This document shows, one piece after another, positions 2,071 through 22,324 of a DNA stretch of 33,678 nt; position 1 is the first letter of the stretch; every line of letters starts with the position of its first letter. A program made the position numbers and the translations under genes. The notes beneath the pieces are model-generated. The model did not search any database. It saw only the letters and a program-made list of their open reading frames with translations, and had not been told where the DNA came from. Source of the DNA: Nitrospirota bacterium (lineage in GTDB: Bacteria > Nitrospirota > Thermodesulfovibrionia > Thermodesulfovibrionales > JdFR-88); assembly GCA_021813765.1 (NCBI GenBank), contig JAKAJM010000023.1, positions 1-33,678 of the forward strand, read 5' to 3'.

Positions 2071-5000
2071 TTGTCTGATTTCGAGAGGGTAAAGCAGGCG
2101 GTAGACTTACAGCAGCTCATAACAAAGGAAACCGGCGTCAAGATGGGGCGGCACTTCCTGGACGAGTGTCCATTTTGCGGCGGGCATGACTGCTTCAGGA
2201 TAAAGGAGGACCTTTTTAACTGCTTTCAGTGCAATCCGCCCCGGGGCGGCTCCGCTATCGATTTTCTGATGCATTTCCACCATGTGGACGAGGCCCAGGC
2301 GCTGGAGATGGCGGCCGCCTTTGCAGGCATCCCACTAACAAAGCAAAAGAAAAAGCTTTCCGTGCCGGACCGCATATTCATGGCGGCGGCCGATTATTAT
2401 CATTCCCTCCTTTCATGCCCTGAGGCAAAAGCGTATCTGGCCGAAAAGCGCGGCCACAAGGAAAACGTGATCAGTGCCGCAAGGGCAGGGTGGTCCGACG
2501 GGAAACTCCATGAGCAGCTTGCAAAAAATTTCAGCGAGGAAGACCTTATAGCCTCCGGCCTGGTCCGGAAGAAAAAGGGCGAAAACGGGGACGGGGGCCT
2601 TTATGATTTGCTTCCCGCCGGCGTGGCCATATTTCCGCATTTTGCGGGCGGAAGGGTTTTGCATTTCACCTTCAAGGACCCCGCCAGGCAAAAGGAATGG
2701 CAGCTGCCTAACGACTATCGCGCCAAAGAATGGCGGTTCTATGGCCAGGACGCGCTTAAGGGAGACGAAATATTCATAGTTGAAGGTGAGAACGACCGCC
2801 TTTCCTGTCTCGATGCCGGCATAAGGAGCGTTGCGGCCTTTATCGGCAAGCCCGCCGGGTACCAGATCAGCGCGATCGAGGCGCTGAAGGAAAAGAGAAT
2901 ATACCTCTGGCTGGACAATGACGCCGCGGGAGTGAAGAACACCCGCAGAATTTGCAAGGAGCTTTTTGGGCAAAATATTAAAATAATCCTTCATCCTTCG
3001 GGCCCGGAGGGGACTCCCGAATACCGGAAGGACCCGGACGAATACATTCAAAAGCTCGGCTGCCGGATAGACATCAAGGCCCTGAAGGAAAACGCCGTTG
3101 ATTACATCGGCTGGGAGCTGCTTCAGATATCGGCCGCTGAAAGCATGGAGGACCGCCTGGGGCTCCTCAAGGAGCGTGAGATATTCCGCCTCCTGGATAA
3201 CCTGCCCGAGGCCGAAATGCTTGCCTACGTGGACCGCCTGGTAAAGCTCGGGTTCACAAAAAAAGCTGTCCTGGAGCAGATAGAGGCCGCCACGGAGATC
3301 CGCGAAGAAATAAACAAGCATATGAACCAGGTGGAGGCCGAGAAAGGCGGCAAGTACAACGCGGACTATTTGGCGGACCTCGTCTTTAAATATTTCGGCC
3401 GCCGCGGCCGTTATTTCACCGAAGGGCAACGGGCCCTTATTTTTTACCACGACAGCCTGTACGAAGTGGGCAATAACCGGGAGTTCAACTCCCTCATGTA
3501 CGCGAAGACCGGGCGGCTGATCCCCACGCGGGAGCCCGGCCGGTCCATATGGGAGATTCTGGCCAGCAAGATATATCTGCACGGCTCGCCGCTAAAGATA
3601 CTCTCCTGGAAGACCACGGACATCTCAAAGCGCACCCTGTTTTTTAATTTCAACAGCCCCAACAAAAAAATAATCAAGCTGTCTCCCGCCGGGATAGAGG
3701 AAATAACCAACGCGCTCAACGATGACGGCGTGCTCCTGAAGGCCTCGGACGAAATGCAGCCCTTCACCTTCGACCCGGACGCGGACGTAACGGAGGGCCT
3801 GCGGCTCTTAAAGGAACTGGTGCTCGATAACATAGCCACGGAGCCAGAGCAGAGATATTTCATACTCTGCTGGCTGCTTTCCGGGTTCATGTTAGGCTTT
3901 TGCCCCTCGCGCCTGCTGCTTTACCTGTCCGGGGCCTCCAGCTCGGGCAAAACGGTCGTCTTTAAAATGGGGTCCATCATATATTACGGCACCATAGAGC
4001 TGGGGGAAATAACGACCGCCAGCCTATACACGATAAGCTCGGAGAACCCGCTGGTCATCCTCGACGATTTTGAGGAAGAGGACAGGACCAAAGGCTCTTC
4101 CAGGTTCATGCGCCTGTCCGCCACGGGCGGCCAGAAAAGGAAAAGAAAGGCCGGCACGGACCGCGATACGGTAAAGGAAAAGCCGGATGCGCTGATTGGC
4201 ATTACCGCCATAGACCCGTTCGAGCAGGTGGCGGAGCTCACCCGCATGGCCGACATCAGCGTGGACCGCCACAGATGGGGAAACGCAGCCTTTGTTGAAA
4301 GCGACGTTTACGAGAAGATTTTACAAAATAGAAATCTGGTCCTTTCTTCCATATTGAAGTTCATGGGCGCTGAGGTCCTGCCGCACCTTGACGATAGAAA
4401 AGTGTTCATGACCACGCTCAGGGAGGCCTTTAAGGGGCACTCCAAAAACCGCATGGATGAGCACCTGGCCCTTATGATCCTCATCCTCCGGAAGATACTT
4501 AAGTACATGCACGATGAAAATGACGCGCTGGCCGGCACGGAGATCGAGGACTGGGAGATATGGAAGGCATGGGTAGAGTATCAGGACAGGAAGTCCAAAG
4601 ACGCAGGGACGGCCTCAAGCCAGGTCGTGAAGCTCCTGGACGGCCTTGTGCGTGAATATCAGCTCAAGATGAAGGACGTCGAACCCCTGCCCCTGAGCAA
4701 CCGGGACTACCAGGAATACGAGGGCCAGAACCTTTTTGCCTACACGCACCAGGACTATTTTATAGAGATGATCAAAACGGTCCCCGATATCAAGACCGGC
4801 GAGAAGGGGGACCGCTGGAGCGAGTGCCGCATGGAGTTCGTGGCCACGGCCGGGGAGATCACAAGCGCCCTGGACAGGTACGCCAAAAACAACGGCATAT
4901 TCAACCCCATGAATACGGCCGCCAAGTTTGTGAACCGGCTCAAGAACGAGAGGCAGTTCCTGGAGAAAAGCGGCTGGGAGCTCGTCACACCAAAGGGGAA

Positions 5001-5073
5001 GGACCTGGGGGACTACTGGCGGATCGCCCGGGGGGAGCGCTTTTACAAATTCAGAAAGGTGATCCTCAGATGA
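2071..5073 (+). CDS. Primase-helicase fusion (CHC2 zinc finger, TOPRIM, P-loop ATPase)
   Basis: A 1,000-residue replication protein that should lay primers and unwind DNA at the element's origin. Numbered from TTG 2071, a DnaG-type zinc finger has C33, C36, C51 and C54. The TOPRIM catalytic core shows IVEGEND (~236-242) and LDNDAAG (~281-287). A C-terminal superfamily-3/D5-like P-loop ATPase has Walker A GASSSGKT at 621-628 and Walker B LVILDDFE with D665/D666. The reading frame is open upstream to 1834, but that part overlaps the CCPDFSCC gene, so TTG 2071 (after GGGAG) is the probable start; it is not certain. The gap after the CCPDFSCC gene is only 29 bases. The iteron-like region lies directly downstream. 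Confidence 0.9.
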   Translation: MSDFERVKQAVDLQQLITKETGVKMGRHFLDECPFCGGHDCFRIKEDLFNCFQCNPPRGGSAIDFLMHFHHVDEAQALEMAAAFAGIPLTKQKKKLSVPDRIFMAAADYYHSLLSCPEAKAYLAEKRGHKENVISAARAGWSDGKLHEQLAKNFSEEDLIASGLVRKKKGENGDGGLYDLLPAGVAIFPHFAGGRVLHFTFKDPARQKEWQLPNDYRAKEWRFYGQDALKGDEIFIVEGENDRLSCLDAGIRSVAAFIGKPAGYQISAIEALKEKRIYLWLDNDAAGVKNTRRICKELFGQNIKIILHPSGPEGTPEYRKDPDEYIQKLGCRIDIKALKENAVDYIGWELLQISAAESMEDRLGLLKEREIFRLLDNLPEAEMLAYVDRLVKLGFTKKAVLEQIEAATEIREEINKHMNQVEAEKGGKYNADYLADLVFKYFGRRGRYFTEGQRALIFYHDSLYEVGNNREFNSLMYAKTGRLIPTREPGRSIWEILASKIYLHGSPLKILSWKTTDISKRTLFFNFNSPNKKIIKLSPAGIEEITNALNDDGVLLKASDEMQPFTFDPDADVTEGLRLLKELVLDNIATEPEQRYFILCWLLSGFMLGFCPSRLLLYLSGASSSGKTVVFKMGSIIYYGTIELGEITTASLYTISSENPLVILDDFEEEDRTKGSSRFMRLSATGGQKRKRKAGTDRDTVKEKPDALIGITAIDPFEQVAELTRMADISVDRHRWGNAAFVESDVYEKILQNRNLVLSSILKFMGAEVLPHLDDRKVFMTTLREAFKGHSKNRMDEHLALMILILRKILKYMHDENDALAGTEIEDWEIWKAWVEYQDRKSKDAGTASSQVVKLLDGLVREYQLKMKDVEPLPLSNRDYQEYEGQNLFAYTHQDYFIEMIKTVPDIKTGEKGDRWSECRMEFVATAGEITSALDRYAKNNGIFNPMNTAAKFVNRLKNERQFLEKSGWELVTPKGKDLGDYWRIARGERFYKFRKVILR

Positions 5074-5377: not shown

Positions 5378-5760
5378 ACATCGTTTTGAAAAGTTTGAAG
5401 TCAGATCGCTAAAAATGCTGCACCACTGCACCACTTTTAATATAACTATTGGATATATATATATAAAATCGTGGTGCAGTTGGTGGTGCAGTTGGTGGTG
5501 CAGCGTGGTGCAGTTGGTGGTGCAGCAAAATGGATTTTTTTTGGACTGCACCACTCAAAAAAACACTATAAATCAAATACTTAATTTTTTCAAACAGAAC
5601 AGTAAAATAATACAACTGCACCACGATTTTTTTGTATTAAATCAATCACTTATATCAAAAAAACGCAAAAGTGGTGCAGTGGTGCAGTTGTTTTGCATTA
5701 AAAAAAGTTCCATTTTTCATGTCCAGAGAATTATAAAAATAAAAAGTTTAAAAACGATGT
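5378..5760. repeat. Outer inverted repeat bracketing the iteron region
   Basis: ACATCGTTTT at 5378-5387 and its exact reverse complement AAAACGATGT at 5751-5760. Both arms continue into a related AAAGTTT stretch on the inner side. The pair encloses every copy of the 9-mer array. With ten bases per arm in AT-rich DNA chance is possible, but the symmetry with the nested 17-bp repeat supports a functional locus boundary. Confidence 0.55.
5418..5687. repeat. Iteron-like array: 11 copies of GTGGTGCAG, probable replication origin or partition site
   Basis: Forward copies GTGGTGCAG lie at 5471, 5483, 5495, 5505, 5517, 5671 and 5679. Reverse copies CTGCACCAC lie at 5418, 5426, 5546 and 5616. The outermost pairs overlap by one base and form a perfect 17-bp inverted repeat (5418-5434 and 5671-5687). 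The central five copies are spaced 12, 12, 10 and 12 bases, near one helical turn. The array sits in AT-rich DNA directly after the primase-helicase gene, the classic setting of an iteron origin. A ParB-like centromere or autoregulatory operator is the alternative. Confidence 0.8.
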
Positions 5761-5802: not shown

Positions 5803-6012
5803 ATGTACGGGATCATAAGCAAAATCAGGGTGAAGACGGCGGCCAGGGAAAACGATCTGATTGTCCGGAGTGACGCTCTTCTTGAGATGGACAAGCTCGC
5901 GGAAAAGCTCATTGATGGGGCAATCCAGGAATGCCTGGCGGACCCGGCCGCCAGGGGATACCTCAAGCGGGAGCATGTGATCAGGGCCAGGAAGCGGATA
6001 TCTGCTTTATGA
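5803..6012 (+). CDS. Small helical protein of unknown function
   Basis: 69 residues from ATG 5803 behind a strong ribosome site (AAAGGAGGG, 5787-5795). It begins MYGIISKIRVKTAARENDL and is mostly helical with alternating charge (LLEMDKLAEKLIDGAIQECL). It resembles a small histone-fold or DNA-binding helical protein only in length and charge; no family is recognised. As the first gene after the iteron region it could be an origin-proximal regulator, which is inference from position. Confidence 0.7.
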   Translation: MYGIISKIRVKTAARENDLIVRSDALLEMDKLAEKLIDGAIQECLADPAARGYLKREHVIRARKRISAL

Positions 6013-7676: not shown

Positions 7677-9137
7677 GTGGAAGAATTTGACGAATCGGGC
7701 ATTAACGATTCTCTTGAAGGTGCCCATATACTGGGCCTCCTTTCCCGCTGTCCCTGCACGGAAGGTTATTATTTCAAGCTCTACCGCGTGGAGCCTAATG
7801 GCAGGCGCTCTTTTCTCCAGGACATAAAAAATTATGAGACCTGGCAGGACATCGAAACCGAAATACACAAGATTGTGGAAGCAAACCCCTGGGGCCTGGA
7901 ATCAAGGACCGGCGAGTACCAGATTTTCATTTATCAGCAAGGGAAGCCCGGCATGGCCAAAGGGGTGACCCCGCTTACCTTCAACTTTTCGTTCCCTCAG
8001 GCCGCCCAGGCTGCGCCTCCCACTCCTACTATCGACTATCCGGGCATGATCAAAGCCGTGGGCGAGCTGGCCGCCAACCTCCAGAATATTCCAGGATTCA
8101 AAGCCCGGGAGGGCAGCAACGATACAGCTAAAATAATGGGGGAGGCTTTCTCCGCAGGCATAGATGTCATGAAAAATGCCATGCCCGCGCAAAGCGGACC
8201 AAGTTCTACAGACCGTCTACTTGAAAGGCTACTTGAAAAGCTGGATAGCAAGACCAAAGAAAAAAACGCTCTGGAAGACCTTGCGGAAAAAATGCTCCTG
8301 GCAAAGCTCAGCGAGCAGCCTGAAAAGTTTGATCCCATAGCAAAAATGAACGAGCTCAAGGAGCTGGCCGCCCTGGTGTTTCCGGGCGCGGGGCCCGCGG
8401 AGCCGCCTTCTGCCCTGAACAAGATAATCGAGACGGTCGGGCCGGCGATCCCGGGTCTCATAGACCGCATCGTAAAGCCCATAGACAACCTCATCTCTTT
8501 CCAGCGGGAAAAGCTTGCGTATATGCATAACGCTCCGAATCGGGGGCCTGTCCCTCCCCCAGCGAGGGAGGAGCTGAAGCAGCCGGTTTCCCCTTCTTCG
8601 GCCGGCGAGCTGGCCCCTCCCTCCCGCCAGGCGCAGCCGATATCTGTAACAGAGGAGGAAGATGTGAACTTTGGAGCTGCTATGAGCTTTTTGAAAAAGC
8701 TTAAAAAAATGATAGAGGTGGGGGACAAAAACTTCCAGAACGTGCTGGACGGCCTGCGGTTTGCTTTCGGCTCCGAGGTTGTGGACCAATACGCGGATGG
8801 CGCTATTACGCGAGAGTCCCTTATGGATACTCTTAAAAAATTCGACAGGTTTTTTGACTCTGGTCAGGCCGATGATTACATCAACGCCTTTTTTGACTGG
8901 GCTGATGCGGAGCTTAAGCCGCTTATGTATGTCTGCCCAGGATGCGGCGCAGAGGAAGAGCTTACGGCAGCCGAATTTAACGAGGATTCGCACTGCGGCG
9001 GCTGCGGGGAGCAGTTAAAGCCGAAGTCTGAAAGCGCGGCGGTGCCCGGGGGCCAGGCGGCAGAAGCCATTGCCGCGGAAAACGTCGCGGTAAAAAAATC
9101 CAACGGGAACGGAAAAGGAAAAGGAGGCTTGAATTAG
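7677..9137 (+). CDS. Large protein with C-terminal zinc ribbon, unknown function
   Basis: 486 residues from GTG 7677. The N-terminal ~100 residues look like a compact alpha/beta domain (GYYFKLYRVEPNGRRSFLQD). A Pro/Ala-rich linker (AAQAAPPTPTIDYPG) follows, then a long helical centre with many Lys/Glu, a second Pro-rich linker, and a C-terminal zinc ribbon CPGCG...CGGCG near 425-450. There is no P-loop. The start is weak. In the same frame an ATG at 7623 behind AAAGAAAGGG opens 16 codons, which end in TGA 7671-7673 just before this GTG. As the first gene of the late module it may be a scaffold or virion-associated protein; I do not recognise it. Confidence 0.75.
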   Translation: MEEFDESGINDSLEGAHILGLLSRCPCTEGYYFKLYRVEPNGRRSFLQDIKNYETWQDIETEIHKIVEANPWGLESRTGEYQIFIYQQGKPGMAKGVTPLTFNFSFPQAAQAAPPTPTIDYPGMIKAVGELAANLQNIPGFKAREGSNDTAKIMGEAFSAGIDVMKNAMPAQSGPSSTDRLLERLLEKLDSKTKEKNALEDLAEKMLLAKLSEQPEKFDPIAKMNELKELAALVFPGAGPAEPPSALNKIIETVGPAIPGLIDRIVKPIDNLISFQREKLAYMHNAPNRGPVPPPAREELKQPVSPSSAGELAPPSRQAQPISVTEEEDVNFGAAMSFLKKLKKMIEVGDKNFQNVLDGLRFAFGSEVVDQYADGAITRESLMDTLKKFDRFFDSGQADDYINAFFDWADAELKPLMYVCPGCGAEEELTAAEFNEDSHCGGCGEQLKPKSESAAVPGGQAAEAIAAENVAVKKSNGNGKGKGGLN

Positions 9138-9138
9138 T

Positions 9139-9417
9139 ATGGGCGTGAAAGGCGTATTTGCAAGCGAAGGCGGCAAGAGGGGCGTCAAAACGGCCGATGG
9201 CCATTTTTACCCGTATAAAGGCACCCTGCCCATGGGGGTGCTGGACGGCAATCCGTGCTCTATAGGCGAGGACATGCTGGACATCAGCGAGGAGGAAAGG
9301 GCCGCCATCATAAGGCAGCTCGGCATAAAGAACGGCCAGATAAAGCCCGAGGCGGAAAAACCCGCTGCTGCAAAGCCCGAGGCGGCATCCGGAGCTGATG
9401 CGGAGCCCGGGAATTAA
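9139..9417 (+). CDS. Small protein with Lys/Ala/Pro tail, unknown function
   Basis: 92 residues from ATG 9139, one base after the previous stop, with AGGAGG at 9121-9126. Residues 1-65 look like a small beta domain (GVFASEGGKRGVKTADGHF and YPYKGTLPMGVLDG). The last 25 residues are a low-complexity KPEAEKPAAAKPEAASG tail. No family recognised. The coupling implies that it works with the zinc-ribbon protein upstream. Confidence 0.65.
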   Translation: MGVKGVFASEGGKRGVKTADGHFYPYKGTLPMGVLDGNPCSIGEDMLDISEEERAAIIRQLGIKNGQIKPEAEKPAAAKPEAASGADAEPGN

Positions 9418-9428
9418 TTGAATTAAAA

Positions 9429-9956
9429 ATGCTTGCCGAGAGGATGGATATAGGGTACGGCGAAACCGCTATTAACCGCACCGTCAAAAAGATGGTGCAG
9501 CTCGCCCGTGAAGGCGGGCATGACCCTATGGTCATCCTCTCGGCTCAAAACATAGTTCGGCGCTTCCCTAACCGGCTGGAGCAGGCCAGGGCTATCTACC
9601 GATGGGTAAAAGAGCATACGGTCTATGTCAAGGACCCCGCCGGGCTTGAGATGCTTCAGACCCCTAAGTTCATGCTCATCCAGATAGCAAACGGGAACGG
9701 ACCGGCGGCAGGGGACTGCGATTGCCTTTCCACCCTGGCGGCCGCGCTTCTGGTGGCGGCTGGCTTCCCCGTCGGCTTCCGGGTGATAAACCGGCCGATG
9801 GATTTTTTAATGGGCGATCCTTACAACTTCGCCCATGTCTATAACATCGTGTGGTTTGGCGGCGTCCCGCTGCCCTTCGATCTGTCCGAAAGGAGCTTCC
9901 GCTTCGGGCAGGAGCATTTCTATGTGCTCAGAAAGGACATTCCAATCAATGCGTAA
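9429..9956 (+). CDS. Transglutaminase-like (papain-fold) enzyme
   Basis: 175 residues from ATG 9429. A bacterial transglutaminase-like triad can be read: Cys97 in GDCDC followed by helix LSTLAAALLVAAGFP, His136 in FAHVYN, and Asp151 in PFDLSE. Such enzymes in phage-like gene clusters act as cysteine proteases or cross-linking enzymes; substrate unknown. It lies in the structural module just before small membrane proteins, so capsid maturation or cross-linking is plausible but inferred. The region upstream of Cys97 (ARAIYRWVKEHTVYVKDP) is the usual helical front of the fold. Confidence 0.75.
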   Translation: MLAERMDIGYGETAINRTVKKMVQLAREGGHDPMVILSAQNIVRRFPNRLEQARAIYRWVKEHTVYVKDPAGLEMLQTPKFMLIQIANGNGPAAGDCDCLSTLAAALLVAAGFPVGFRVINRPMDFLMGDPYNFAHVYNIVWFGGVPLPFDLSERSFRFGQEHFYVLRKDIPINA

Positions 9957-9975
9957 CTTCCGGGAGGGCCGATAA

Positions 9976-10542
9976 ATGCTTGAGGGGCCGGAAAGCGACC
10001 TGATACAGTCCACAATCGGGATATTCCTTAACAAGGAGCTTTCGGACACATATACGAAGCTGCAGCAGGCCGGCGCGATGATCCGGAGCTTCCCGTACAC
10101 CAGCCCGGGGATAGACGTCTTGCAGCAGCAGTACAACGGCCTGAAACCCCTGGTGGAGCAGGCCCGGCAGCAGAGCCAGGCCGGAAACGAGATACAGGCT
10201 GAGATAGACGTTCAGATACTTCAGCCAGCTGTGGATAAGCTTTTTTCCGATGCGGAAAATTATGTGCGGCAGCAGCAGGCCTCCGGGAATGTGTATTACA
10301 AGGCCAAGCCGGACAGGGGCTCTTATTTTTCTCCGGGGCAGCAGGAATATTTCCCGGCGGGCTCCCCGCCCACTATCGTCCGGGAGCTCAAGCAATACCC
10401 GGTTGAAGGCGTGGGCATTCCCGCCTGGATGTGGATAATGGGCATTGCGGCGGCGGGCCTTTGGGCGTTCAGCCGGCATAGGAACCCGCGGGGGCGCAGG
10501 CCGGCGCGCAGGCGGAAAAACAGCAGGGGCAGGGGACGCTGA
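9976..10542 (+). CDS. C-terminally anchored membrane protein with basic tail
   Basis: 188 residues, ATG 9976 after GGGAGGG (9961-9967). Residues ~1-110 are helical and Gln-rich (LQQQYNGLKPLVEQARQQ). Residues ~147-165 form one transmembrane segment (GIPAWMWIMGIAAAGLWAF). About 23 very basic residues with RHRNP and RRRKN motifs follow. The topology suggests a virion membrane protein whose basic tail could face packaged DNA; inference. The stop overlaps the next ATG. It is one of at least five proteins here with this layout. Confidence 0.7.
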   Translation: MLEGPESDLIQSTIGIFLNKELSDTYTKLQQAGAMIRSFPYTSPGIDVLQQQYNGLKPLVEQARQQSQAGNEIQAEIDVQILQPAVDKLFSDAENYVRQQQASGNVYYKAKPDRGSYFSPGQQEYFPAGSPPTIVRELKQYPVEGVGIPAWMWIMGIAAAGLWAFSRHRNPRGRRPARRRKNSRGRGR

Positions 10543-11024
10543 TGTCTGGTCCTATTGTTAAATCCCTGGAGAATTTCGGCGGGAAGATATATAACGAGTT
10601 CCACCCGTTGCATAAGGCAATCTCCGGGCCTCCCATTATTGCCCGCGAATCCTACGACGTTTACATCAAGGGCAGCGGCCTTATGGGCTGGGCCTATCCC
10701 ACCAATGAAGACATACAGGCCTTCTTCAGAGGCAGGCTTCGGAACCTGATGCAGGTAAAAGGATTGTCCCACGATCCGTTAAGCTCAACTTTCAAAATAA
10801 CGGTAACTCCGCTAAAGCCAATGCCGAAGGACCAGATTGCCAACAGCCTGCTCACCGTGATGAACGCATACGCTGGGTTCTGGTTGCATTTCGGGAGCTT
10901 CAAGGTTACAGACATAGAAAAGGCCGGGGCGCTTGATGACTGGATGAGCAAAGCGGACAGCCTTCTGCCGCTCCTGGCCATCGGCGTGATCGGTTTTATT
11001 GCGGTGAGGGAACTGCGGCTGTGA
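10542..11024 (+). CDS. C-terminally anchored membrane protein
   Basis: 160 residues, ATG 10542 overlapping the previous TGA. The soluble part has a mixed alpha/beta look (YDVYIKGSGLMGWAYPTNED; FKITVTPLKPMPKDQI). The last ~20 residues (LLPLLAIGVIGFIAVRELRL) form a transmembrane segment ending in a basic residue pair. The next gene starts at GTG 11021 inside the stop. No family recognised. Likely virion membrane protein from context. Confidence 0.7.
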   Translation: MSGPIVKSLENFGGKIYNEFHPLHKAISGPPIIARESYDVYIKGSGLMGWAYPTNEDIQAFFRGRLRNLMQVKGLSHDPLSSTFKITVTPLKPMPKDQIANSLLTVMNAYAGFWLHFGSFKVTDIEKAGALDDWMSKADSLLPLLAIGVIGFIAVRELRL

Positions 11025-11236
11025 GCGAAAAGGTTTTCGATATGAAACGGAACGCACAGGGCGTCTACGAGGCGGTTTTTGCATCCGCGCAGCCCCGCCG
11101 GACGGCGGGGGCGTCAAGCGGAGCGCCGCAGAGAGGCTTCCTCGATGAAGCATTGGACGCCCTGGGCCGTGCTGCCGCCGACGCCGCGCGCAAAGAGCTT
11201 GAAAAACGAGGTTTGGGAGGTCTTTTGAATGTCTAA
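11021..11236 (+). CDS. Small protein of unknown function
   Basis: 71 residues from GTG 11021, overlapping the preceding stop as GTGA. The N-terminal part is MSEKVFDMKRNAQGVYEAVF. An Ala/Arg stretch follows, then a helical C-terminus (LDEALDALGRAAADAARKEL) that looks amphipathic. It ends in the start region of the next gene (eight-base overlap). No family recognised; translational coupling places it in the structural operon. Confidence 0.6.
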   Translation: MSEKVFDMKRNAQGVYEAVFASAQPRRTAGASSGAPQRGFLDEALDALGRAAADAARKELEKRGLGGLLNV

Positions 11237-12020
11237 GCAGACTGAAAAGCAGAAAAAGGCCCTTGCCGAAAGCCAGGCCATTATGAAGCTTACGCCAAAG
11301 TACCGCGCGGAAGGCATGAGCCTGAAAGAAGCGTGGAAGGCGGCGAAAAAGGAATATTTTAAGGGGAAGGATTCCGGACAAGCCGGAATGACAAATAAGA
11401 AAAACCCGCTGGCAAAGACGGTCTGCTACAAGCGGGGCGTGAATCCAAAAAGCCGCAAAACAGTCAATGGTTATGCGGTAAAGAGTTCAAGAGTATTTAA
11501 ACAGGGTGACTATTATCGCTGGAGGGTTGTAGATGTCAATGGCCGCGTATATACGGATGGGGGCAATTATACTTCCCGGCGAGAGGCTATGTCTGGTCTG
11601 CGGAAAGGATTAGATAAACATAACCCCTCTATCCCTAAAAAGGAGCTTGAGTTTCGCGAGGGCAAAAGGCGCGGGTCCATCATGAAGCCCGGGACGTTCA
11701 AAAAAATCGAGAAAAAGGCCAAAAAGGCCGGATATAAAGACCCCAAGGCCGTGGCCAGGAGGAAAAACCCTCCTGATAATATTCCTTCGATGGTAGAGAT
11801 ATACGGACAGGCGCTTGAGACGCATGCGCGGAAAGGCAACTCTTCCCTTTTTGCCGGCCAGGAGTTTGTGCATGACTGGGAAAAGGCCGGGACAAAGATA
11901 TTCGGCCTGCCGGCGGGAACCATCATAAGCCTGCCGGACGGGGATTCCGTGACGCTCGATCAGCGCACGGTGATAATGATCAATAAAAAGGAAGACCTTT
12001 GGGACCTGTTCAAACAGTGA
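11229..12020 (+). CDS. Basic protein with K/R-N-P motifs
   Basis: 263 residues from ATG 11229, with GGGAGG upstream (11215-11220). The N-terminal part is a Lys-rich helical domain (SLKEAWKAAKKEYFKGKD) ending in NKKNP. Residues ~65-140 look like a small beta domain with YYRWRVVDVNGRVY. A second basic segment with ARRKNP leads to a C-terminal domain (HDWEKAGTKIFGLPAGTI). Repeated K/R-N-P boxes are shared with the basic proteins nearby. Probably DNA-associated or proteolytically processed; function unknown. Confidence 0.7.
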   Translation: MSKQTEKQKKALAESQAIMKLTPKYRAEGMSLKEAWKAAKKEYFKGKDSGQAGMTNKKNPLAKTVCYKRGVNPKSRKTVNGYAVKSSRVFKQGDYYRWRVVDVNGRVYTDGGNYTSRREAMSGLRKGLDKHNPSIPKKELEFREGKRRGSIMKPGTFKKIEKKAKKAGYKDPKAVARRKNPPDNIPSMVEIYGQALETHARKGNSSLFAGQEFVHDWEKAGTKIFGLPAGTIISLPDGDSVTLDQRTVIMINKKEDLWDLFKQ

Positions 12021-12175
12021 AATCCATAGTGGGCAAGAGCGAGCTGGTGAATTACCTCTCCAGGCTGGAGAGGGACCGTTTCTATGGCGAGCTCACCCTG
12101 AAGATAGAGTCCGGAAACATCGTGCATGTCCGGCAGGACCAGGTGCTTAAGAAAGACGATCTTATGAAAGACTGA
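12017..12175 (+). CDS. DUF2292-like small protein
   Basis: 52 residues from GTG 12017 overlapping the preceding TGA as GTGA. The sequence LERDRFYGELTLKIESGNIV followed by HVRQDQVLK matches the DUF2292 pattern (YG-x-hydrophobic-T-x-K-I-E-x-G-x-I-V-H). These are short beta-hairpin proteins common in bacteria and phages; no role is known to me. A strong terminator follows 40 bases later, so this is the last gene of its transcription unit. Confidence 0.7.
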   Translation: MKSIVGKSELVNYLSRLERDRFYGELTLKIESGNIVHVRQDQVLKKDDLMKD

Positions 12176-12216
12176 GCTTTTTAGCCGCATATAGCTGACC
12201 GGCTGTTGAGCAAATC

Positions 12217-12258
12217 AAGGCCGGGTGACCTGTGAAAGGGTTGCCCGGCCTTTTTTTA
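12217..12258 (+). terminator. Intrinsic terminator
   Basis: AGGCCGGG (12218-12225) pairs with CCCGGCCT (12244-12251), directly followed by TTTTTTATT. This is a GC-rich stem and T-tract after the DUF2292-like gene. The next gene starts 34 bases later, so either read-through or a promoter within this short gap is needed. Confidence 0.8.
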
Positions 12259-12291
12259 TTCGCCTGCGGGGCGGAAAGGAGGTTTGAAAAA

Positions 12292-13137
12292 ATGGCGGTT
12301 TATAAACCGAAAGGCAATCAGGAGGCGTTCCTGGTGAACCCTCACGGCAAGAGGGTGGGCAGGAAAAAAAATAGCTGGAGCGGCCAGCGAGGCAAGCACA
12401 AGCGCGCCGCGCAGGTCGGATGGTCTTCAAGAAAAGCGGGGATAAAAGGATTCAAGTCTGCTGAAGGCGGCAGCTTTCCCTCAAACCCTGAAGGTAAGAA
12501 AAAAAATCCCCTTCTCATTCTGGGGAATTCGAAAGGAGAGGCAATGGCCAAGAAAAGGAACAGCAGCAAGAGGCGCAGCAAAAGACGCAGCAACCCTGTA
12601 ACGCATCACAGGAGACACAGAAGGAGCAACCCGGTTGCCAGGCACGCCAGGCGCCACAGGAATGCCAGGAGGCGCAATCCCGTCCTTATGGGCATAACGA
12701 TGGGCGATATCCTGGCCGGCGGCGCAAGCGCGCTTCTGACCGTCACCCTGCCCGAGTGGCTCAAGACGGAAAAGCCCTTGACCAGGTACGGCGTGAAGAT
12801 CGGCAACGCGATCGCCGGAAAGATCGTCCTGGATAAGATGCTCAAGACCGGCACCGGCGGCGCCTACCTGCTGGTGGGACTTGGCGTTACAGCGGCCGAC
12901 GCGGCCAAGGAGTTTATCTTTAAAAAGGTGGAGCTGCTTACCCATATGGGGCCCGTGCAGATACCGCAGGGCACTCCCCTTTTGCTCGCTCCGGAGACCA
13001 AGGCCAACGTGCAGAATGCGATAGCCTCGGCCCAGGCTCAGGGTGCGGCGCATCCGGCGGCCGCGAATCCGAATCTGCAGGGCTATCTCAGCGAGATGGA
13101 CCCCAATTACATGATGGGGACGATGTTCAACCAGTAG
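12292..13137 (+). CDS. Very basic protein with R/K-N-P repeats and hydrophobic C-terminal half
   Basis: 281 residues from ATG 12292 behind AAAGGAGG (12275-12282). Residues 1-84 are Lys/Arg/Gly-rich with VNPHGKR and KKKNP. Residues ~85-125 are extremely basic (KRRSKRRSNP, HRRHRRSNP, ARRRNP). A domain with GDILAGGASALLTVTLP and GGAYLLVGLGVTAADAA follows, probably one or two membrane-associated helices, then a Gln/Ala tail. An in-frame internal start with its own SD (ATG 12544) may yield a second, 197-residue product. It precedes the capsid candidate; a genome-condensing or vertex membrane protein is possible. Confidence 0.7.
   Translation: MAVYKPKGNQEAFLVNPHGKRVGRKKNSWSGQRGKHKRAAQVGWSSRKAGIKGFKSAEGGSFPSNPEGKKKNPLLILGNSKGEAMAKKRNSSKRRSKRRSNPVTHHRRHRRSNPVARHARRHRNARRRNPVLMGITMGDILAGGASALLTVTLPEWLKTEKPLTRYGVKIGNAIAGKIVLDKMLKTGTGGAYLLVGLGVTAADAAKEFIFKKVELLTHMGPVQIPQGTPLLLAPETKANVQNAIASAQAQGAAHPAAANPNLQGYLSEMDPNYMMGTMFNQ
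12532..12546 (+). promoter_or_regulatory. Internal ribosome binding site and in-frame start
   Basis: AAAGGAGAG (12532-12540) sits three bases before ATG 12544, in the frame of the basic protein. The spacing is short but the site is strong. Initiation here would produce a protein beginning MAKKRNSSKRRSKRRS, exactly at the start of the Arg-rich block. This suggests nested translation or a fusion of two once-separate genes. Confidence 0.5.
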
Positions 13138-13140
13138 AAA

Positions 13141-13161
13141 AGCGACCCGGTTGAGGTCGCT
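13141..13161 (+). promoter_or_regulatory. Hairpin upstream of capsid gene
   Basis: AGCGACC (13141-13147) pairs with GGTCGCT (13155-13161) with loop CGGTTGA, directly after the previous stop and 42 bases before the capsid ATG. Only a weak T-tract follows (GTTTTAAAAATTTT), so it may be an attenuator or RNA-stabilising hairpin. Its GACC-loop-GGTC core resembles the hairpin at 6227. Confidence 0.55.
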
Positions 13162-13202
13162 GAAGTTTTAAAAATTTTGCAAAAAAAGGAGAAAACAAAC
13201 AA

Positions 13203-13940
13203 ATGCAGACAAAGACTCTTTCGTCCTACCATCCTCTTACGGTAGCGGCGATCCAGAATGAGTTTCTGAAAAACCCCAAAGCCTTCGGCAGCGTTGTAAA
13301 AAACATGGCCACCTTCCAGAACCAGTGGGAGATCATATTCCAGCCCAAGTATGACAGGGTGGAATATCCGGCGGCCGGCGCGGCCACGCTTCAGTTCTTC
13401 AGCAAGCCCCAGGGCGGAAGCGACACGCTGATAACCGGCGGGTCTTCCGGCTCCAGGGTAAAGAACCTGAGGGACACCAACGCCAGGCAGGCCAACCAGC
13501 AGTCTGACGAAGCGTTCATAATAATGGGCGTGCAGCTCGGGTACCTGCCCCTTTCCACGGGCATATCTTCCACCGCGCTCCTCAACTTCGAGGACGACAA
13601 GGCGAAGATAGCCATGGGCAGCTACTTCCAGATGATCCTCATAAACAAGCCCTACATCCAGACGCCGGCTCTCTTCATCCCCTCCCCGTTCGAGAGCAAG
13701 GGCAGCAAGGCCATGGCGATGTACGACCAGAGCGCGGCCACGATAAACGTGATCGGCGGCCCCGGCGGCTACGGAGACGGGAAGATAACCAGCTCTTACC
13801 CGTGCGACCCGCCTTACCTGATAGAGGCCGGCGAGGGTTACACCATAACCCTCAACACGGACTCGACGGCGCTTTCCAGCGGCAACGACATGGACATCAT
13901 CTGCTGCCTGGTGGGCTATACCATAAGGCCCGTGCAGTAA
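13203..13940 (+). CDS. Probable major capsid protein
   Basis: 245 residues from ATG 13203, with AAGGAG at 13186-13191. The sequence is beta-rich with many Gly/Ser/Thr/Pro turns, no signal peptide and no membrane segment (VEYPAAGAATLQFFSKPQGG; FIIMGVQLGYLPLSTG; GEGYTITLNTDSTAL). It stands alone between a hairpin at 13141 and a 12-bp-stem hairpin at 13953, with highly regular coding, as expected for a gene made in large amount. A jelly-roll fold is plausible but not proven, and I see no HK97-fold hallmark or protease partner. One of the following beta-rich proteins could instead be the main shell protein. Confidence 0.5.
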   Translation: MQTKTLSSYHPLTVAAIQNEFLKNPKAFGSVVKNMATFQNQWEIIFQPKYDRVEYPAAGAATLQFFSKPQGGSDTLITGGSSGSRVKNLRDTNARQANQQSDEAFIIMGVQLGYLPLSTGISSTALLNFEDDKAKIAMGSYFQMILINKPYIQTPALFIPSPFESKGSKAMAMYDQSAATINVIGGPGGYGDGKITSSYPCDPPYLIEAGEGYTITLNTDSTALSSGNDMDIICCLVGYTIRPVQ

Positions 13941-13952
13941 GCCGTATGCGGT

Positions 13953-13980
13953 AGAAAGGGGGGCTCAGGCCCCCCTTTCT
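13953..13980. promoter_or_regulatory. Long perfect hairpin after capsid gene
   Basis: AGAAAGGGGGGC (13953-13964), loop TCAG, then GCCCCCCTTTCT (13969-13980): a perfect 12-bp stem 12 bases after the capsid stop. No T-tract follows (CAAAGAG), so it may act as a partial terminator or a block to 3' exonucleases, keeping capsid mRNA abundant relative to the downstream genes. Confidence 0.75.
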
Positions 13981-14004
13981 CAAAGAGAACTGTGAAATAA
14001 AATC

Positions 14005-14032
14005 GCCCTCAAGGGCAGGAGGTCTCAAGACC
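14005..14032 (+). promoter_or_regulatory. Twin TCAA-loop hairpins around a Shine-Dalgarno
   Basis: GCCCTCAAGGGC (14005-14016) and GGTCTCAAGACC (14021-14032) are two perfect 12-base palindromes with the same TCAA centre. Between and overlapping them is AGGAGG (14017-14022), 13 bases from ATG 14036. Folding the second hairpin would shorten the effective spacing but hide two SD bases. Likely translation control of the following gene; inference. Confidence 0.5.
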
Positions 14033-14035
14033 GGA

Positions 14036-14845
14036 ATGTACAAGCAATTTTTCATAAACAATTTCAACGCCCTCCCGCTGTCCGCGGGAACGGCGGACGC
14101 CCTTCCCACAGGTACGTATTTTACGGATGTGCCCGTCACAATGCCTATAGACGGGGACTTCGAAGGGCGGCGCCTGGTTTATGTGGCGACCGACCCGAGG
14201 GTGTATCTCAAAATTAAAAATTCCATGGGCTATTACTACAACGACGTGCCCGCCCTGGACGCCCGGCTTTCCTGCGGGCAGACGGTTAACCTGGGCGCGG
14301 GCGGCAATGCCCTGATATTCAAAAACCTGGCCAGGCGGATCCTCGCGCCGGCCAGCTCAATCCTCACGCTTGAGGCAGGAGATTTCTCCGGGGCGCAGAA
14401 CAATGTGCGCATAGCCATGCACGGCCTGAAGCTGGTGCCCGGCCTGGCGCCCTGGATAGCATCCAAAAGGAAATACATCGAGGAAATCCCCTGGCAGTCC
14501 CCGCAGTACACGGGGTCGCTCGTGGCAAACCAGACGGCTATCCTTTCAGTTTCTGTTCCGTCCGGTTACGATTTTTTCATCGAGCGGATCACGGCCACGA
14601 GGACCGGGGCTGCCACGGTGGAGCTTAACGCCGGCGGGGCCCAGCTTAACCTCCAGAACACAGCCACGCACATAGACAACTTCACGGGCAACGTGGCGGG
14701 GCATCTCATCCTGGACGTGCCCATCTACATCCCGGAAAACAGCATGCTGGTGGCAAAGATAACGGACATTTCCGGAGCCACTAACGCCGTTACCATGACC
14801 TTTGAGGGGACACTGCGCCGGTTCCAGAAAACCAGGGAGATATAA
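14036..14845 (+). CDS. Beta-rich virion protein candidate (two domains)
   Basis: 269 residues from ATG 14036. Residues ~1-150 contain strands such as GTYFTDVPVTMPIDGD and RRLVYVATDPRVYLKI. Residues ~165-269 form a second beta-sandwich-like domain (LSVSVPSGYDFFIERITATR; LILDVPIYIPENSMLVAKI; MTFEGTLRRF). No membrane segment or signal peptide is visible. The second domain resembles the next protein in style (surface strand pattern ending in an aromatic/basic strand). A second shell or vertex protein is the likely role. The family is not recognised. Confidence 0.6.
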   Translation: MYKQFFINNFNALPLSAGTADALPTGTYFTDVPVTMPIDGDFEGRRLVYVATDPRVYLKIKNSMGYYYNDVPALDARLSCGQTVNLGAGGNALIFKNLARRILAPASSILTLEAGDFSGAQNNVRIAMHGLKLVPGLAPWIASKRKYIEEIPWQSPQYTGSLVANQTAILSVSVPSGYDFFIERITATRTGAATVELNAGGAQLNLQNTATHIDNFTGNVAGHLILDVPIYIPENSMLVAKITDISGATNAVTMTFEGTLRRFQKTREI

Positions 14846-14848
14846 AGA

Positions 14849-15337
14849 ATGGCCGGCAAAAACAATAACGCGCTCACAAAGGCCCAGCTTGAGGGGGTGG
14901 AGATATATAACGCCCTTAATGCCATCCTGGATGATTTCAAGCGGAATTACCTTTATCTCCATTTCCAGCCGCAAGAGGCCATCCCCTTCGATGTGATCGG
15001 GGACTATGCCTTTTCGGCCTCGGGAAACACCGAGAAGACTGTGGTCACCTTCCAGGTGCCGGGCAACGTTATCGGGGTGCTCAAATGGGTGGGCATAGAC
15101 AGCGACCAGCCGAACCTTTTCGACAACTCCACATGGAACCTGCGGATAAACGGCAATGCCGTGCCCAACTGGGGCGGCATAGACGTGCAGAAAGGGTCTG
15201 TCCTCCAGCCTACCCCGGAGACGATATCCCTTCAGGCCAACGATGTGGTAGCAATGGGGTGCGTGCTTTCGGGCAGCACCGGAATAAATTTCAACGTCAG
15301 AGCGTTCGCCCGGCTTAAGGGCTGGTTCTGGTACTAA
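14849..15337 (+). CDS. Beta-rich virion protein candidate (single domain)
   Basis: 162 residues, ATG 14849, four bases after the previous stop. A short helical N-terminus (LTKAQLEGVEIYNALNAIL) is followed by a compact beta domain: VVTFQVPGNVIGVLKWVGID, WNLRINGNAVPNWGG, ISLQANDVVAMG, and a final strand NVRAFARLKGWFWY. This looks like a single jelly-roll-type domain with an aromatic last strand, a pattern I associate with hypothetical virion proteins; no precise family. The helix could anchor it to the capsid. Confidence 0.6.
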   Translation: MAGKNNNALTKAQLEGVEIYNALNAILDDFKRNYLYLHFQPQEAIPFDVIGDYAFSASGNTEKTVVTFQVPGNVIGVLKWVGIDSDQPNLFDNSTWNLRINGNAVPNWGGIDVQKGSVLQPTPETISLQANDVVAMGCVLSGSTGINFNVRAFARLKGWFWY

Positions 15338-15349
15338 GGGGGCCTGTAA

Positions 15350-15868
15350 ATGCCAAAACTGCCATTAGCGGTGCAGCTTGTTAACGGCCTCTCGGTGGGC
15401 TCCGTCAGCCTTTCCGGAAACATGACACCGGGAGACGCGGTTGCAAACCCATCCAGCCTTATCGGCTCGGAAGATTTCCTTCAGCTCTATGACCAGACGC
15501 AGGGCAAATGGTACATGGCCCGTTGCAACGAAGGGGTGCTGTTCGCCCAGGTGTTCAACAACCAGGCGGTGCTGGACTCCACAACGGCCTTCCTGGGGTC
15601 CGCTGGGACATATACCGGAGCCGCGAAGACCTGCGGGGCTTACGGACGTATAGTAGGCTCCATTTACTCCGACCAGGCCGGGACTGCATATATCGAGCAG
15701 TCCCAGGACGGAGCGAACTGGGACATATCCCAGAGCGTAGCGATCACGGCCGCGACCGCGGCCAACTTTTCCATCGAGGTCCAGGCCCCGAATTGCAGAC
15801 TGAGGATAGTAAACGGGGCGACGGCGCAAACGGTGTTGCGGGCCTACATGAACGGGAGGTCTATTTAG
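15350..15868 (+). CDS. Beta-rich virion protein candidate
   Basis: 172 residues, ATG 15350 with GGGGG at 15338-15342. The protein is rich in Ser/Gly/Ala and strands. The C-terminal ~80 residues (IVGSIYSDQAGTAYIEQSQD; FSIEVQAPNCRLRIVNG; TVLRAYMNGRSI) resemble a carbohydrate-binding-like or capsid-decoration beta-sandwich, of the kind found in phage head fibres. The stop TAG is directly followed by the next ATG. Role inferred from position only. Confidence 0.6.
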   Translation: MPKLPLAVQLVNGLSVGSVSLSGNMTPGDAVANPSSLIGSEDFLQLYDQTQGKWYMARCNEGVLFAQVFNNQAVLDSTTAFLGSAGTYTGAAKTCGAYGRIVGSIYSDQAGTAYIEQSQDGANWDISQSVAITAATAANFSIEVQAPNCRLRIVNGATAQTVLRAYMNGRSI

Positions 15869-16333
15869 ATGAAGATTTACGCGCGTAATCTCAGCACCAG
15901 GAGCGGAGCAAACCTTTCCGGGGTCACCGGAACGGTAGTGCAGGGCCCCGGCGGAACGGTGGGGCTTCAGGACATATTCGGGGATTTTTATTATTTCAAA
16001 AACCCGGCCACTGCATATCAATTCCCCGTGGGGAGCCGCCTGGACGTGGGCAACGATTATCTTTCCCCGTATAACCCGAACATACCCGGCAACGGCAACC
16101 CGGCCATTCCGGAGCCTGGACAAGAGCCGTACACGCTGCCCGGCTATTATGCACCGGGCCCCACGAGTGACCACAAGTGGGCCACGATAGACAAATTCGC
16201 CATCCTGGGCGGCCTGGGTGCACTTGGCCTGGGCTACCTGCTTGGCAACCATTATGCAAAGCCAGCGCCGGCATCGGCGCCGGGCTCTGCAAACGGCTTA
16301 AGCAGCAGGAGCAATTATGCCATACTCACCTAA
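15869..16333 (+). CDS. C-terminally anchored membrane protein
   Basis: 154 residues from ATG 15869, directly after the previous stop. Residues 1-105 are Gly/Pro/Tyr-rich with few helices. Residues ~110-128 (FAILGGLGALGLGYLLG) form one glycine-rich membrane segment, followed by an Ala/Pro/Ser tail. The gene overlaps the next start by 17 bases. The topology matches the other small membrane proteins of this module, so a virion membrane component is likely. Confidence 0.65.
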   Translation: MKIYARNLSTRSGANLSGVTGTVVQGPGGTVGLQDIFGDFYYFKNPATAYQFPVGSRLDVGNDYLSPYNPNIPGNGNPAIPEPGQEPYTLPGYYAPGPTSDHKWATIDKFAILGGLGALGLGYLLGNHYAKPAPASAPGSANGLSSRSNYAILT

Positions 16334-16730
16334 ACCTTTCCTGCCTTCAGGCTACATGGTAAACAGTGCGTTCCTGCCTACGGGATATACGCTCGAGGAA
16401 TGGCAAAAAAAACTCCGGAACGCCAGGTACATAAACGGCCCCGTGGCGGACCTGTTTAAAAGCGCCGCAGTCCTTCCTGGAGTGCGAGTAAGGGGGGCTT
16501 TCGTATCTGCCCAGGGACCGCAATGGATGCCCAGGGGCGCGCGCATCCCGGGGCAGCCATTGCCGGCCACGAAAGCCAGAAAAATAAACGCTCACCTGTC
16601 CGGCATGGCAGATGACGTTTTCAGCCAGGTGAAAGGGTTGTACGAAAAGGACCCTGCGGTTTTCCAGGTAGGGGCAGCGGTGCTTGCGGGCATCGCGCTA
16701 TTCGCTTTTTTGCCCGGAGGTAAAAGATGA
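16317..16730 (+). CDS. C-terminally anchored membrane protein
   Basis: 137 residues from ATG 16317, within the end of the previous gene; an SD-like AGCAGGAGC lies at 16303-16311. The N-terminal part is Pro/Gly/Tyr-rich (PKPFLPSGYMVNSAFLPTGY), with a repeated F-L-P-[ST]-GY element at residues ~8 and ~19. The middle is basic, and residues ~115-133 (VGAAVLAGIALFAFL) form a membrane segment ending GGKR. It overlaps the next ATG as ATGA. Probable virion membrane component. Confidence 0.65.
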   Translation: MPYSPKPFLPSGYMVNSAFLPTGYTLEEWQKKLRNARYINGPVADLFKSAAVLPGVRVRGAFVSAQGPQWMPRGARIPGQPLPATKARKINAHLSGMADDVFSQVKGLYEKDPAVFQVGAAVLAGIALFAFLPGGKR

Positions 16731-17902
16731 AAACAGTTTACGCGCGCGGCTCGAGGAGAGCGCAGAGGCGCATGACGGGGCTGGAGGGGCTGTCCGGAGT
16801 CAATGACCCGGTGGTGTATCCGGTGGACACCGGGGGGTCGCTCATAAACGAATGGCAGGGCCATATAGCGGAAGGCGGACCGGGCAGCATGAACGACTGG
16901 CAGACAAACCCATGGGAAGAACAAGGGCTTGGCTGCTTCATGGGATGTTTTTGGCGTGCCCCTGTGCACGCCATCAGCACGTTCGTGGGACATAACGCGC
17001 ACACGGTTGAGGGCATCGCAGCCGCAGCTGGTGCTACGCTTTTGGGTGGTGTTGGCGCGGCCCCTTTAGGGTTCGAAATAGGGCATGCCTCAAAACCGCT
17101 TAAAACAATGGCCAAACAAGCTGTGGGCGCGGTGGAAGGTGGAATAACAGGGCTCGAAACGGGGGGGCCAGTCGGAGCCGCGATAGGTGCCTATGGGGGC
17201 GCTGTTGGCTCTGGTGCATTTGGTGGAAAAATTGCAGGGCCTACAAACCTGGAAATCGGAGGAGCTGCAGGGGTAGCAGGTGGAACATACGGGGGGCTTA
17301 CCACCGGGCAAGGACTGATAGGCTCGCTTACGTCAAAGACCTACGCTGTGGCCCCAGGCACAGAGGGTGCGGCAACCGGTGAGGGCAGCGCAGCGGCCGG
17401 AGGATATTCGGCCGTCCCGGGGGCAAACAGCCTCTCTATCGGCACCATAGGGGCAAACGGGGCGGTATCTAGCAGTCCAGGCCTTTTGTCCGAGATCGGC
17501 ACAGACCTTCTTTCCGTGGGGAAATACGCGGCTGGGGCCGCGGCCACCCTCTTTGGCAGCCAGCTTGCGGGTGGAGCTTCCCCTTATGGATATGCGCCGG
17601 CGGCCTCATATGTCCCGGCGGGATACGCCACTCCGGACAATCCGATTGTCGGGGGCATAGGAAGCGGAGGGCCCGCGGGTGCATCCGACGAGGGCGGCAT
17701 ATCTTACCTGGGCGGCCCGGACACTTCCGGGGGGTCCTACGACACTACGGATTACGGCCAGGCGCAGCAGGCAAAATATCCCGCTATGCCAAACAAGGGT
17801 CTCAGCGCCGCCCAGGGCGTAATGGCAGGCGGTGGAGCCCTTGGTGTGCTATTGCTACTTAACCGCTTAAAAACCAGAACGAGCTCAAAGAGGAAGGCAT
17901 GA
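16727..17902 (+). CDS. Glycine-rich membrane-active protein with C-terminal anchor
   Basis: 391 residues from ATG 16727 (overlapping TGA). The N-terminal ~40 residues are basic. Residues ~95-300 are Gly/Ala-rich with glycine-zipper-like segments (AAAAGATLLGGVGAAPLGFE; GAAIGAYGGAVGSGAFGG). Residues ~366-383 (GVMAGGGALGVLLLLNRL) form a terminal membrane helix, with the tail KTRTSSKRKA. Glycine zippers are typical of membrane-penetrating or pore proteins, so a role in genome delivery is conceivable, but this is inference from composition. No tape-measure features (length, coiled coils) are seen. Confidence 0.6.
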   Translation: MKTVYARGSRRAQRRMTGLEGLSGVNDPVVYPVDTGGSLINEWQGHIAEGGPGSMNDWQTNPWEEQGLGCFMGCFWRAPVHAISTFVGHNAHTVEGIAAAAGATLLGGVGAAPLGFEIGHASKPLKTMAKQAVGAVEGGITGLETGGPVGAAIGAYGGAVGSGAFGGKIAGPTNLEIGGAAGVAGGTYGGLTTGQGLIGSLTSKTYAVAPGTEGAATGEGSAAAGGYSAVPGANSLSIGTIGANGAVSSSPGLLSEIGTDLLSVGKYAAGAAATLFGSQLAGGASPYGYAPAASYVPAGYATPDNPIVGGIGSGGPAGASDEGGISYLGGPDTSGGSYDTTDYGQAQQAKYPAMPNKGLSAAQGVMAGGGALGVLLLLNRLKTRTSSKRKA

Positions 17903-18360
17903 GAACGGTAACCTCGGACACTACCCTGCTTGAAAGTGACGACGTCATAAACTGCGACTGCACAAACGGGGACATAACAGTAACCCTTCCGTACGGCAAC
18001 AGCATCGCATACCTGCAGCAGTTTGCCGTCGTAAAGGTGGACCGGACTGCCCATGTGGTAAATATAGTCCCATCGTCCGGAGAGGCTATAGACGGGGCCT
18101 CCGAAATCATATTAAAAAAGGACCCCCTCTACAACGCCATGTTCCGCCTGCAAGCGGTAACAGGCGGTTGGCACAATCCGGCCAGCAAGACGCCCATCCC
18201 GGCCCCGGCCGGGACAGGAGTGGGCAGCATTTTGCAGCTTACGGCCGACCTTCCTGTGACAGCATCGAACGTGGGGAAGACCTGGTACAACATCACGGAT
18301 AAAACATACAAGAAAATAGCCCTCGACGGAAACGGCATCCCGAGGCTGGAGATATGGTAA
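17899..18360 (+). CDS. Virion/spike-associated beta protein, unknown
   Basis: 153 residues from ATG 17899 overlapping the previous stop (ATGA). The sequence is strand-rich (DGDITV-like repeats: INCDCTNGDITVTLPYGNS; FAVVKVDRTAHVVNIVPSSG). The C-terminal PIPAPAGTGVGSILQLTADL segment reads like a phage fibre or tail-fibre tip module. It precedes the beta-helix gene and overlaps it by a few bases. Probably a partner of that spike. The family is not recognised. Confidence 0.55.
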   Translation: MRTVTSDTTLLESDDVINCDCTNGDITVTLPYGNSIAYLQQFAVVKVDRTAHVVNIVPSSGEAIDGASEIILKKDPLYNAMFRLQAVTGGWHNPASKTPIPAPAGTGVGSILQLTADLPVTASNVGKTWYNITDKTYKKIALDGNGIPRLEIW

Positions 18361-20162: not shown

Positions 20163-20680
20163 TCCGTGACATAGTCCTAAATGAGGCCGCCAGGTGGAAC
20201 GTTCCGCCTGCCTGGATATTCGCCATCATCAGGACAGAGTCCGGAGGCAACCCGGGCTCCATTGGGCGTGGAGACTGTGCCCGCGGTGAATGCTCCTACG
20301 GGCTCATGGGCATAAAGCTGTCCACCGCCCGGGGCCTGGACCCTTCCGTGACTGTCCAGGAGCTCATGACGCCAGAAAAAAATATAGAGATAGGCGCCAT
20401 GTACCTGGCGCAGCTCCGGAGGCGCTTCAGCTCGCCCGAGGACGTTTTCTCCTATTACAAGGGCGGCCATCCATGGGCCACATCCAGCCCGCAGGCAAAA
20501 AAGGAAGCCCAGCAGGCCATGCTGGCGGCCGGGCAAAGCGCTGTCATGGTGGCCACAGGCCAATATGACCGGCGGTCCACGTTGGCAGCCGAGGCGGGGA
20601 TGCTCTCCGGAATACCCAAACCTGTGTTTTATATCGCCGGCTTCATGGCGCTCATCGCTTTATTAAGAGGGAGCTTATGA
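20159..20680 (+). CDS. Lytic transglycosylase (SLT-like) with C-terminal membrane anchor
   Basis: 173 residues, ATG 20159 overlapping the previous TGA. The SLT core is clear: WNVPPAWIFAIIRTESGGNP with catalytic Glu27, then YGLMGIK (usual YGLMQI), then NIEIGAMYLAQL and FSYYKGG. It cleaves peptidoglycan glycan strands. Residues ~155-173 (FYIAGFMALIALLRGSL) form a C-terminal membrane segment. A membrane-bound transglycosylase is found in virions of tectivirus-like phages, where it opens the cell wall on entry; here either entry or lysis is possible. Confidence 0.8.
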   Translation: MIRDIVLNEAARWNVPPAWIFAIIRTESGGNPGSIGRGDCARGECSYGLMGIKLSTARGLDPSVTVQELMTPEKNIEIGAMYLAQLRRRFSSPEDVFSYYKGGHPWATSSPQAKKEAQQAMLAAGQSAVMVATGQYDRRSTLAAEAGMLSGIPKPVFYIAGFMALIALLRGSL

Positions 20681-20880
20681 CAGACAACGGAAAAAAATAC
20701 GTGACCTGGAAGGCGCTTTTAAGGATCCTCATCATGCTCGGTTTCGGAGTTATTTCCGCTTTTGGATATACGCTGAACCAGGTTGGAACAAAAGCGGATA
20801 AATCGGATATGTGCTATATCCGGGGCCGGGTGGACCAGATCTATAACCTGATGCTTGAAAGAGAAGGGGGGCGCAATTAG
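20677..20880 (+). CDS. Small membrane protein, possible lysis accessory
   Basis: 67 residues from ATG 20677, overlapping the previous TGA as ATGA. One membrane segment at ~11-30 (LLRILIMLGFGVISAFGYTL) is followed by a charged helix (RVDQIYNLMLEREGG). The stop directly precedes the next ATG. Size and place between two transglycosylases suggest a holin- or spanin-like helper, though the family is not recognised. Confidence 0.6.
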   Translation: MTDNGKKYVTWKALLRILIMLGFGVISAFGYTLNQVGTKADKSDMCYIRGRVDQIYNLMLEREGGRN

Positions 20881-22303: not shown

Positions 22304-22310
22304 AAAAAAA
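22286..22310 (+). promoter_or_regulatory. Hairpin followed by A-run and Shine-Dalgarno
   Basis: GGGCT (22286-22290), loop TATCC, AGCCC (22296-22300), then TGAAAAAAAAGGAGG. The TGA is the stop of the hydrolase gene. The order hairpin, CTGA, A-run, GGA recurs at 6222-6257 and in a looser form at 13141-13191. Confidence 0.4.
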
Positions 22311-22324
22311 GGAGGACATTTGAG

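Follow-up and report, generated by a model that had tools for sequence, protein, structure and literature searches.

The array and the element that carries it

The window analysed here, a stretch of 33,678 nucleotides from a Nitrospirota bacterium, encodes a primase-helicase (2071-5073, plus strand), and an array of 9-bp repeats, here called iterons, begins 345 bp past its stop codon on the 3' side. Exact matching counts eleven copies of GTGGTGCAG at 5418-5687, seven forward and four reverse. Iterons 1 and 2 (5418-5426 and 5426-5434, minus strand) form the outer left pair and are followed by a spacer with ATATAACTAT (5435-5470), in which 32 of 36 bases are A or T. The central array consists of iterons 3 to 7 on the plus strand (5471-5479, 5483-5491, 5495-5503, 5505-5513 and 5517-5525), with start-to-start distances of 12, 12, 10 and 12 bp, a spacing that is near-helical, not exactly helical. 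Two single copies on the minus strand come next: iteron 8 (5546-5554), at the place that is canonical in relatives, and iteron 9 (5616-5624), an extra copy, with extra sites here also in L026, L028, L033, L038 and L053. The outer right pair, iterons 10 and 11 (5671-5679 and 5679-5687, plus strand), closes the array; it repeats the outer left pair perfectly in inverted orientation, the 17 bp at 5671-5687 matching the 17 bp at 5418-5434 across an interval of 236 bp. No credible gene runs across the array, which is intergenic, and no Rfam family matches there. The number, orientation and near-helical spacing of the copies, the 17-bp inverted repeat and the AT-rich non-coding location are all as the original prediction had described them.

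The rest of the window (33.7 kb) has no further exact copy of GTGGTGCAG. If one mismatch is tolerated, the window holds 19 matches, against 5.85 in shuffled sequence (sd 2.25, maximum 12; 100 shuffles). Genome-wide there are 36 copies in 2.58 Mb; the 25 outside the array are dispersed across many contigs and about as numerous as those of a reversed-pattern control (27). The sign of the GC skew stays the same across the array; the skew is uninformative and is counted against the reading of the array as an origin.

The array lies in an element of about 28.7 kb integrated at tRNA-Arg(CCG). Its right end is the att site at 23626-23667 (minus strand), the 3' end of this tRNA gene, of which an exact copy lies beside the integrase gene of contig C106 (5076-5117); this contig also carries an S24-type repressor gene, and its integrase is of the tyrosine type. 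The first 180 nucleotides of the window and the start of C106 (L107) hold the same GC-rich repeat on opposite strands. Since both contigs open with this repeat, the assembly has split the element there, leaving its left end on C106. The repressor, the integrase and the tRNA-Arg(CCG) copy that also ends the element at 23626-23667 mark the element as temperate and give it its length of about 28.7 kb, with the integrase and its att site at the opposite end from the array. In genome G008 a relative lies next to the same pair of tRNA genes and has its genes in the same order. The element itself is not filed as a PICI, a term that denotes helper-packaged phage satellites with the PICI gene order.

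At 7677-22774 lies a long run of genes, most of them unrecognised, and for much of it G008 is the only one of the loci searched that has relatives. The run is possibly a module for the virion of a virus type not yet described; a candidate capsid protein (13203-13940) gives a low-confidence model (pLDDT 40) and has no relatives in viral contigs.

The primase-helicase

The protein combines a DnaG-type CHC2 zinc finger and TOPRIM domain (Pfam/PHROGs) with a fused AAA+ helicase similar to D5, SaPI Rep and Cch and with a C-terminal winged helix. Its AlphaFold model has a mean pLDDT of 86 and ends in a winged helix of ~75 residues. Foldseek matches include DnaG, SCCmec Cch (5dgk), the SaPI5 primase-helicase (7ola), D5-type helicases and poxvirus E5. 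The winged-helix domain, delimited by the secondary structure of the model (residues 927-1000; 4849-5070, plus strand), is the proposed reader of the iterons. The initiator would thus be a D5-like helicase with a predicted C-terminal DNA-binding domain, the covariation described below being what points to DNA binding. In the 41 loci compared, the primase is the sole protein family present in every one.

Arrays in related loci

Alignment-based searches of Nitrospirota, Desulfobacterota and IMG/VR gave a training set of about 30 usable distinct loci, the window included; these scans recovered the family in viral contigs where a scan with a single primase sequence had found no match. A de novo count of k-mers 3' of the primase gene found a dense array there in 30 training loci. 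The 22 held-out loci, which a later scan supplied, all have one as well, for a total of 52, although the held-out set is not fully independent, some of its members being closely related to one another or to training loci. One locus, L145, lacks an array within 1.5 kb, which is counted against the origin reading; nor is one seen in the sequence examined of a primase fragment (L035) and a partial relative (L060), and in L024, L025 and L096 the contig ends inside the array or at its start.

The iteron words differ while the layout stays the same. More than 12 words occur among the 52 loci, including GTGGTGCAG, GGTGCAGT, GGGGCAG, GTAGCAGT, GGGTGCAA, GGGGCACT, GGGTGGAG, GGGGGAACC and TAGGGGAA. Exact GTGGTGCAG was not found in the first relatives searched because their word is another one, and an exact count of the 9-mer in relatives would therefore have dismissed the array wrongly. 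The original prediction had staked itself on related elements with the same replication gene: the array is indeed present in them, with its word spelled differently.

After the arrays are anchored on the same core base, most loci share the geometry '< 8 < 51 > 12 > 11 > 10 > 11 > 23 < 51 > 8 >' (< reverse, > forward, spacings in bp), some with missing or extra sites. Compared with this core, the window has one extra '<' (at 5616) and a right spacer longer by about one turn (61). A motif-independent scan for the geometry in 1.45 Mb (101 loci) gave real matches only 3' of these or related primases, and none in shuffled sequence. It also found L058 and L059, downstream of two more distant primases and with the word TGGACA. 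The length of the AT-rich spacer falls into classes of 50-52, 58-61, 70-72 and 83 bp, that is, in steps of about 10 bp or roughly one helical turn (P = 0.003 for the distinct values; hand assignment was used for a few spacers whose sites are degenerate). Together with its composition, this quantisation (about 51/60/71 bp in relatives) is the basis on which 5435-5470 is proposed as a DNA unwinding element.

Covariation of iteron and winged helix

Once overall divergence is removed, the distance between iterons tracks the distance between primases most closely at residues 955-990 of 1000 (28 elements; partial r 0.44, with 0 of 2000 permutations as high), a peak that falls inside the modelled winged helix. 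The top of 4,980 residue/base tests pairs residue 985 with iteron position A-3; column-wise mutual information is mostly phylogenetic, and only this top pair was taken further. In the window the residue is Ile985, in the wing (codon 5023-5025, plus strand), and the base is T, which makes it the proposed specificity residue for this position.

The training rows are concordant throughout (28/28): Val, Ile or Cys at 985 goes with T in 16 of 16, and Lys or Arg with G or A in 12 of 12. On a tree built without the C-terminus, all six independent switches at residue 985 are concordant (sign test p = 0.031), the iterons of two loci used among them, L024 and L096, being read from truncated arrays. Widened to other non-basic residues, the rule holds in 20 of the 22 held-out loci (Fisher p = 0.006). 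The exceptions, L114 and L115, belong to a single lineage in which some sites have the other spelling, and they are counted against the origin reading. The wing residue 985 thus predicts iteron base A-3, a non-basic residue going with T and Lys or Arg with G or A.

Comparison with known origins

In the original prediction the sequence was not recognised. Its type can be, and it matches the origins of the P4/PICI kind. The known cis-acting replication sites of P4, PICIs and SaPIs occupy the matching place, 3' of the initiator gene (PMC6092414, PMC7581432). PICI origins have two iteron sets flanking an AT-rich region, a layout that, according to its authors, occurs in no other known bacterial replicon (PMC6092414). 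The pri-ori of EcCICFT073 (L101; PMC6092414), measured here as '< 9 < 51 > 17 < 11 < 9 < 36 > 11 > 17 < 51 > 9 >', has its iterons directly 3' of the primase gene and two sets around AT-rich DNA, as in the window, and its outer units '< 9 < 51 > ... < 51 > 9 >' show the same 51-bp spacing as the present arrays. It differs in its word, GGTAGA, and in its central cluster, '> 17 < 11 < 9 < 36 > 11 > 17 <', in place of five tandem copies.

Phage P4 (X51522, L100), whose initiator is the alpha protein, has 8-bp type 1 repeats and a crr site directly 3' of the alpha gene, as here. Its ori, measured as '< 10 < 46 > 19 < 11 < 10 <', corresponds to one half of the present arrays in reverse reading, and its word GGTGAACA resembles GGTGAAAG of L118 and L120. 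In P4, however, the sites are split, with ori and crr about 5 kb apart, whereas the present arrays are compact and two-sided. A unit of a tandem pair, about 46-51 bp and a divergent single copy is found in P4 and EcCICFT073 and bounds the present arrays. Comparison of the C-terminal domain with those of P4 alpha and the PICI primase by hhalign found no similarity (single sequences, a weak test), so that the likeness of the origins may reflect either common descent or convergence.

SaPI Rep uses its C-terminal domain to recognise iterons that lie directly downstream of the rep gene, and Cch2 of SCCmec behaves similarly in vitro (PMC7581432). These systems share with the present one a D5-type helicase, a C-terminal dsDNA-binding domain and iterons directly 3' of the gene, and the Foldseek matches to 7ola and 5dgk agree with this; the primase here, in contrast, is DnaG-type and fused. 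This comparison covers the proteins and the place of the iterons. ORF904 of pRN1 is likewise a primase-helicase-winged-helix protein with the origin region 3' of its gene (PMC4234260), but with a stem-loop instead of iterons and with an archaeo-eukaryotic primase.

Interpretation and alternatives

With high probability the array serves a temperate integrated element as its replication origin. The origin would be of the P4/PICI kind and very probably belongs to a new lineage and variant of it. The original prediction had left the choice between an origin and a centromere-like site. The first is strongly supported by the recurrence of the array in 52 loci, each time 3' of this replication gene, and by its covariation with the winged helix of that gene's product. 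The second is not supported: repeats with dyad symmetry and a ParB_N gene 4 kb away could suit a partition site bound by the ParB-like protein encoded at 1227, or by another partition protein, but this 92-aa protein consists of the N-terminal ParB_N domain only, with no recognised DNA-binding domain, and has hits in only 4 loci, whereas nearly all well-covered relatives have arrays. A conserved centromere-binding protein linked to the array, as in ParABS systems, is thus not seen, and the array covaries with the primase; of the readings considered, partition is the least credible. Arm-type sites of a tyrosine integrase in an attP region are scarcely more so. Most relatives have an integrase gene less than 6 kb from the primase, often downstream of the array, and attP and crr adjoin in P4; yet the integrase and att site of the present element are at its other end (C106), the array is still present where no related integrase gene is near it (the window, L037, L043 and L049), and covariation with the primase again speaks for the replication protein.

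It is also very unlikely, if a shade less so, that the array is a set of operators for a transcription regulator, or one through which the primase regulates itself, with the origin elsewhere. The array is intergenic, as an operator would be. Iterons can also serve copy control, as in iteron plasmids, which lends this reading some weight. Against it stand the origin-like traits of AT-rich spacer, helical phasing and covariation with the initiator, and the known replication sites of P4, PICIs and SaPIs at the same place (PMC6092414, PMC7581432).

For the array as an origin, the following mechanism is proposed. The primase-helicase encoded just upstream would use its C-terminal winged helix to bind every one of the 9-bp iterons. 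The five tandem iterons, at about one helical turn, could help to assemble AAA+ helicase hexamers, with the two flanking units (tandem pair, about five turns, divergent single copy) joining in the assembly, so that hexamers would form on both sides of the AT-rich spacer. The spacer would then melt, the TOPRIM domain would prime and a host polymerase would extend. Computation establishes that the array exists and where it lies, that its geometry is conserved, that spacer length is quantised in steps of ~10 bp and that protein and DNA covary; from these we infer iteron binding, melting, hexamer loading and origin activity.

An origin layout of this kind now extends to other elements, in at least 52 loci; several of these elements are phages that carry terminase or portal genes themselves. 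Constraints on the loading of D5-type helicases at an origin can be read directly from the conserved spacings. The paired changes yield a specificity rule open to test, which links residue 985 to base A-3, and a geometry scan can locate origins without prior knowledge of the repeat. There is perhaps an even chance that one blueprint, a tandem pair, five helical turns and a divergent single copy, mirrored around a core array, is common to P4, to PICIs and to a broad family of elements and phages from Nitrospirota and Desulfobacterota. It would be kept by the loading geometry of D5-type helicases, while origin identity drifts by paired changes of iteron letters and a few wing residues, and origin sequence would then be partly predictable from the initiator.

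Several smaller features of the loci may be added. A common order, seen in L018 and other loci, is primase, origin, tyrosine integrase and Mor-like regulator; in several loci terminase or portal genes follow further on. This order suggests temperate phages sharing a replication module. Small proteins are encoded just 3' of the origin (5803-6012 in the window; 8887-9171, minus strand, in L015); they have no significant Pfam match and look, by eye, vaguely histone-fold-like. In L019, L048, L057, L110, L113, L117 and L123, extra forward iterons overlap the stop codon of the primase gene or follow it directly; they precede the main array by about 100 bp and might serve as an accessory or autoregulatory site. 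L024/L025, L114 and L119 have mixed iteron spellings in one array, e.g. GGTAGCAA with GGGGGCAA, and are perhaps origins in transition between specificities.
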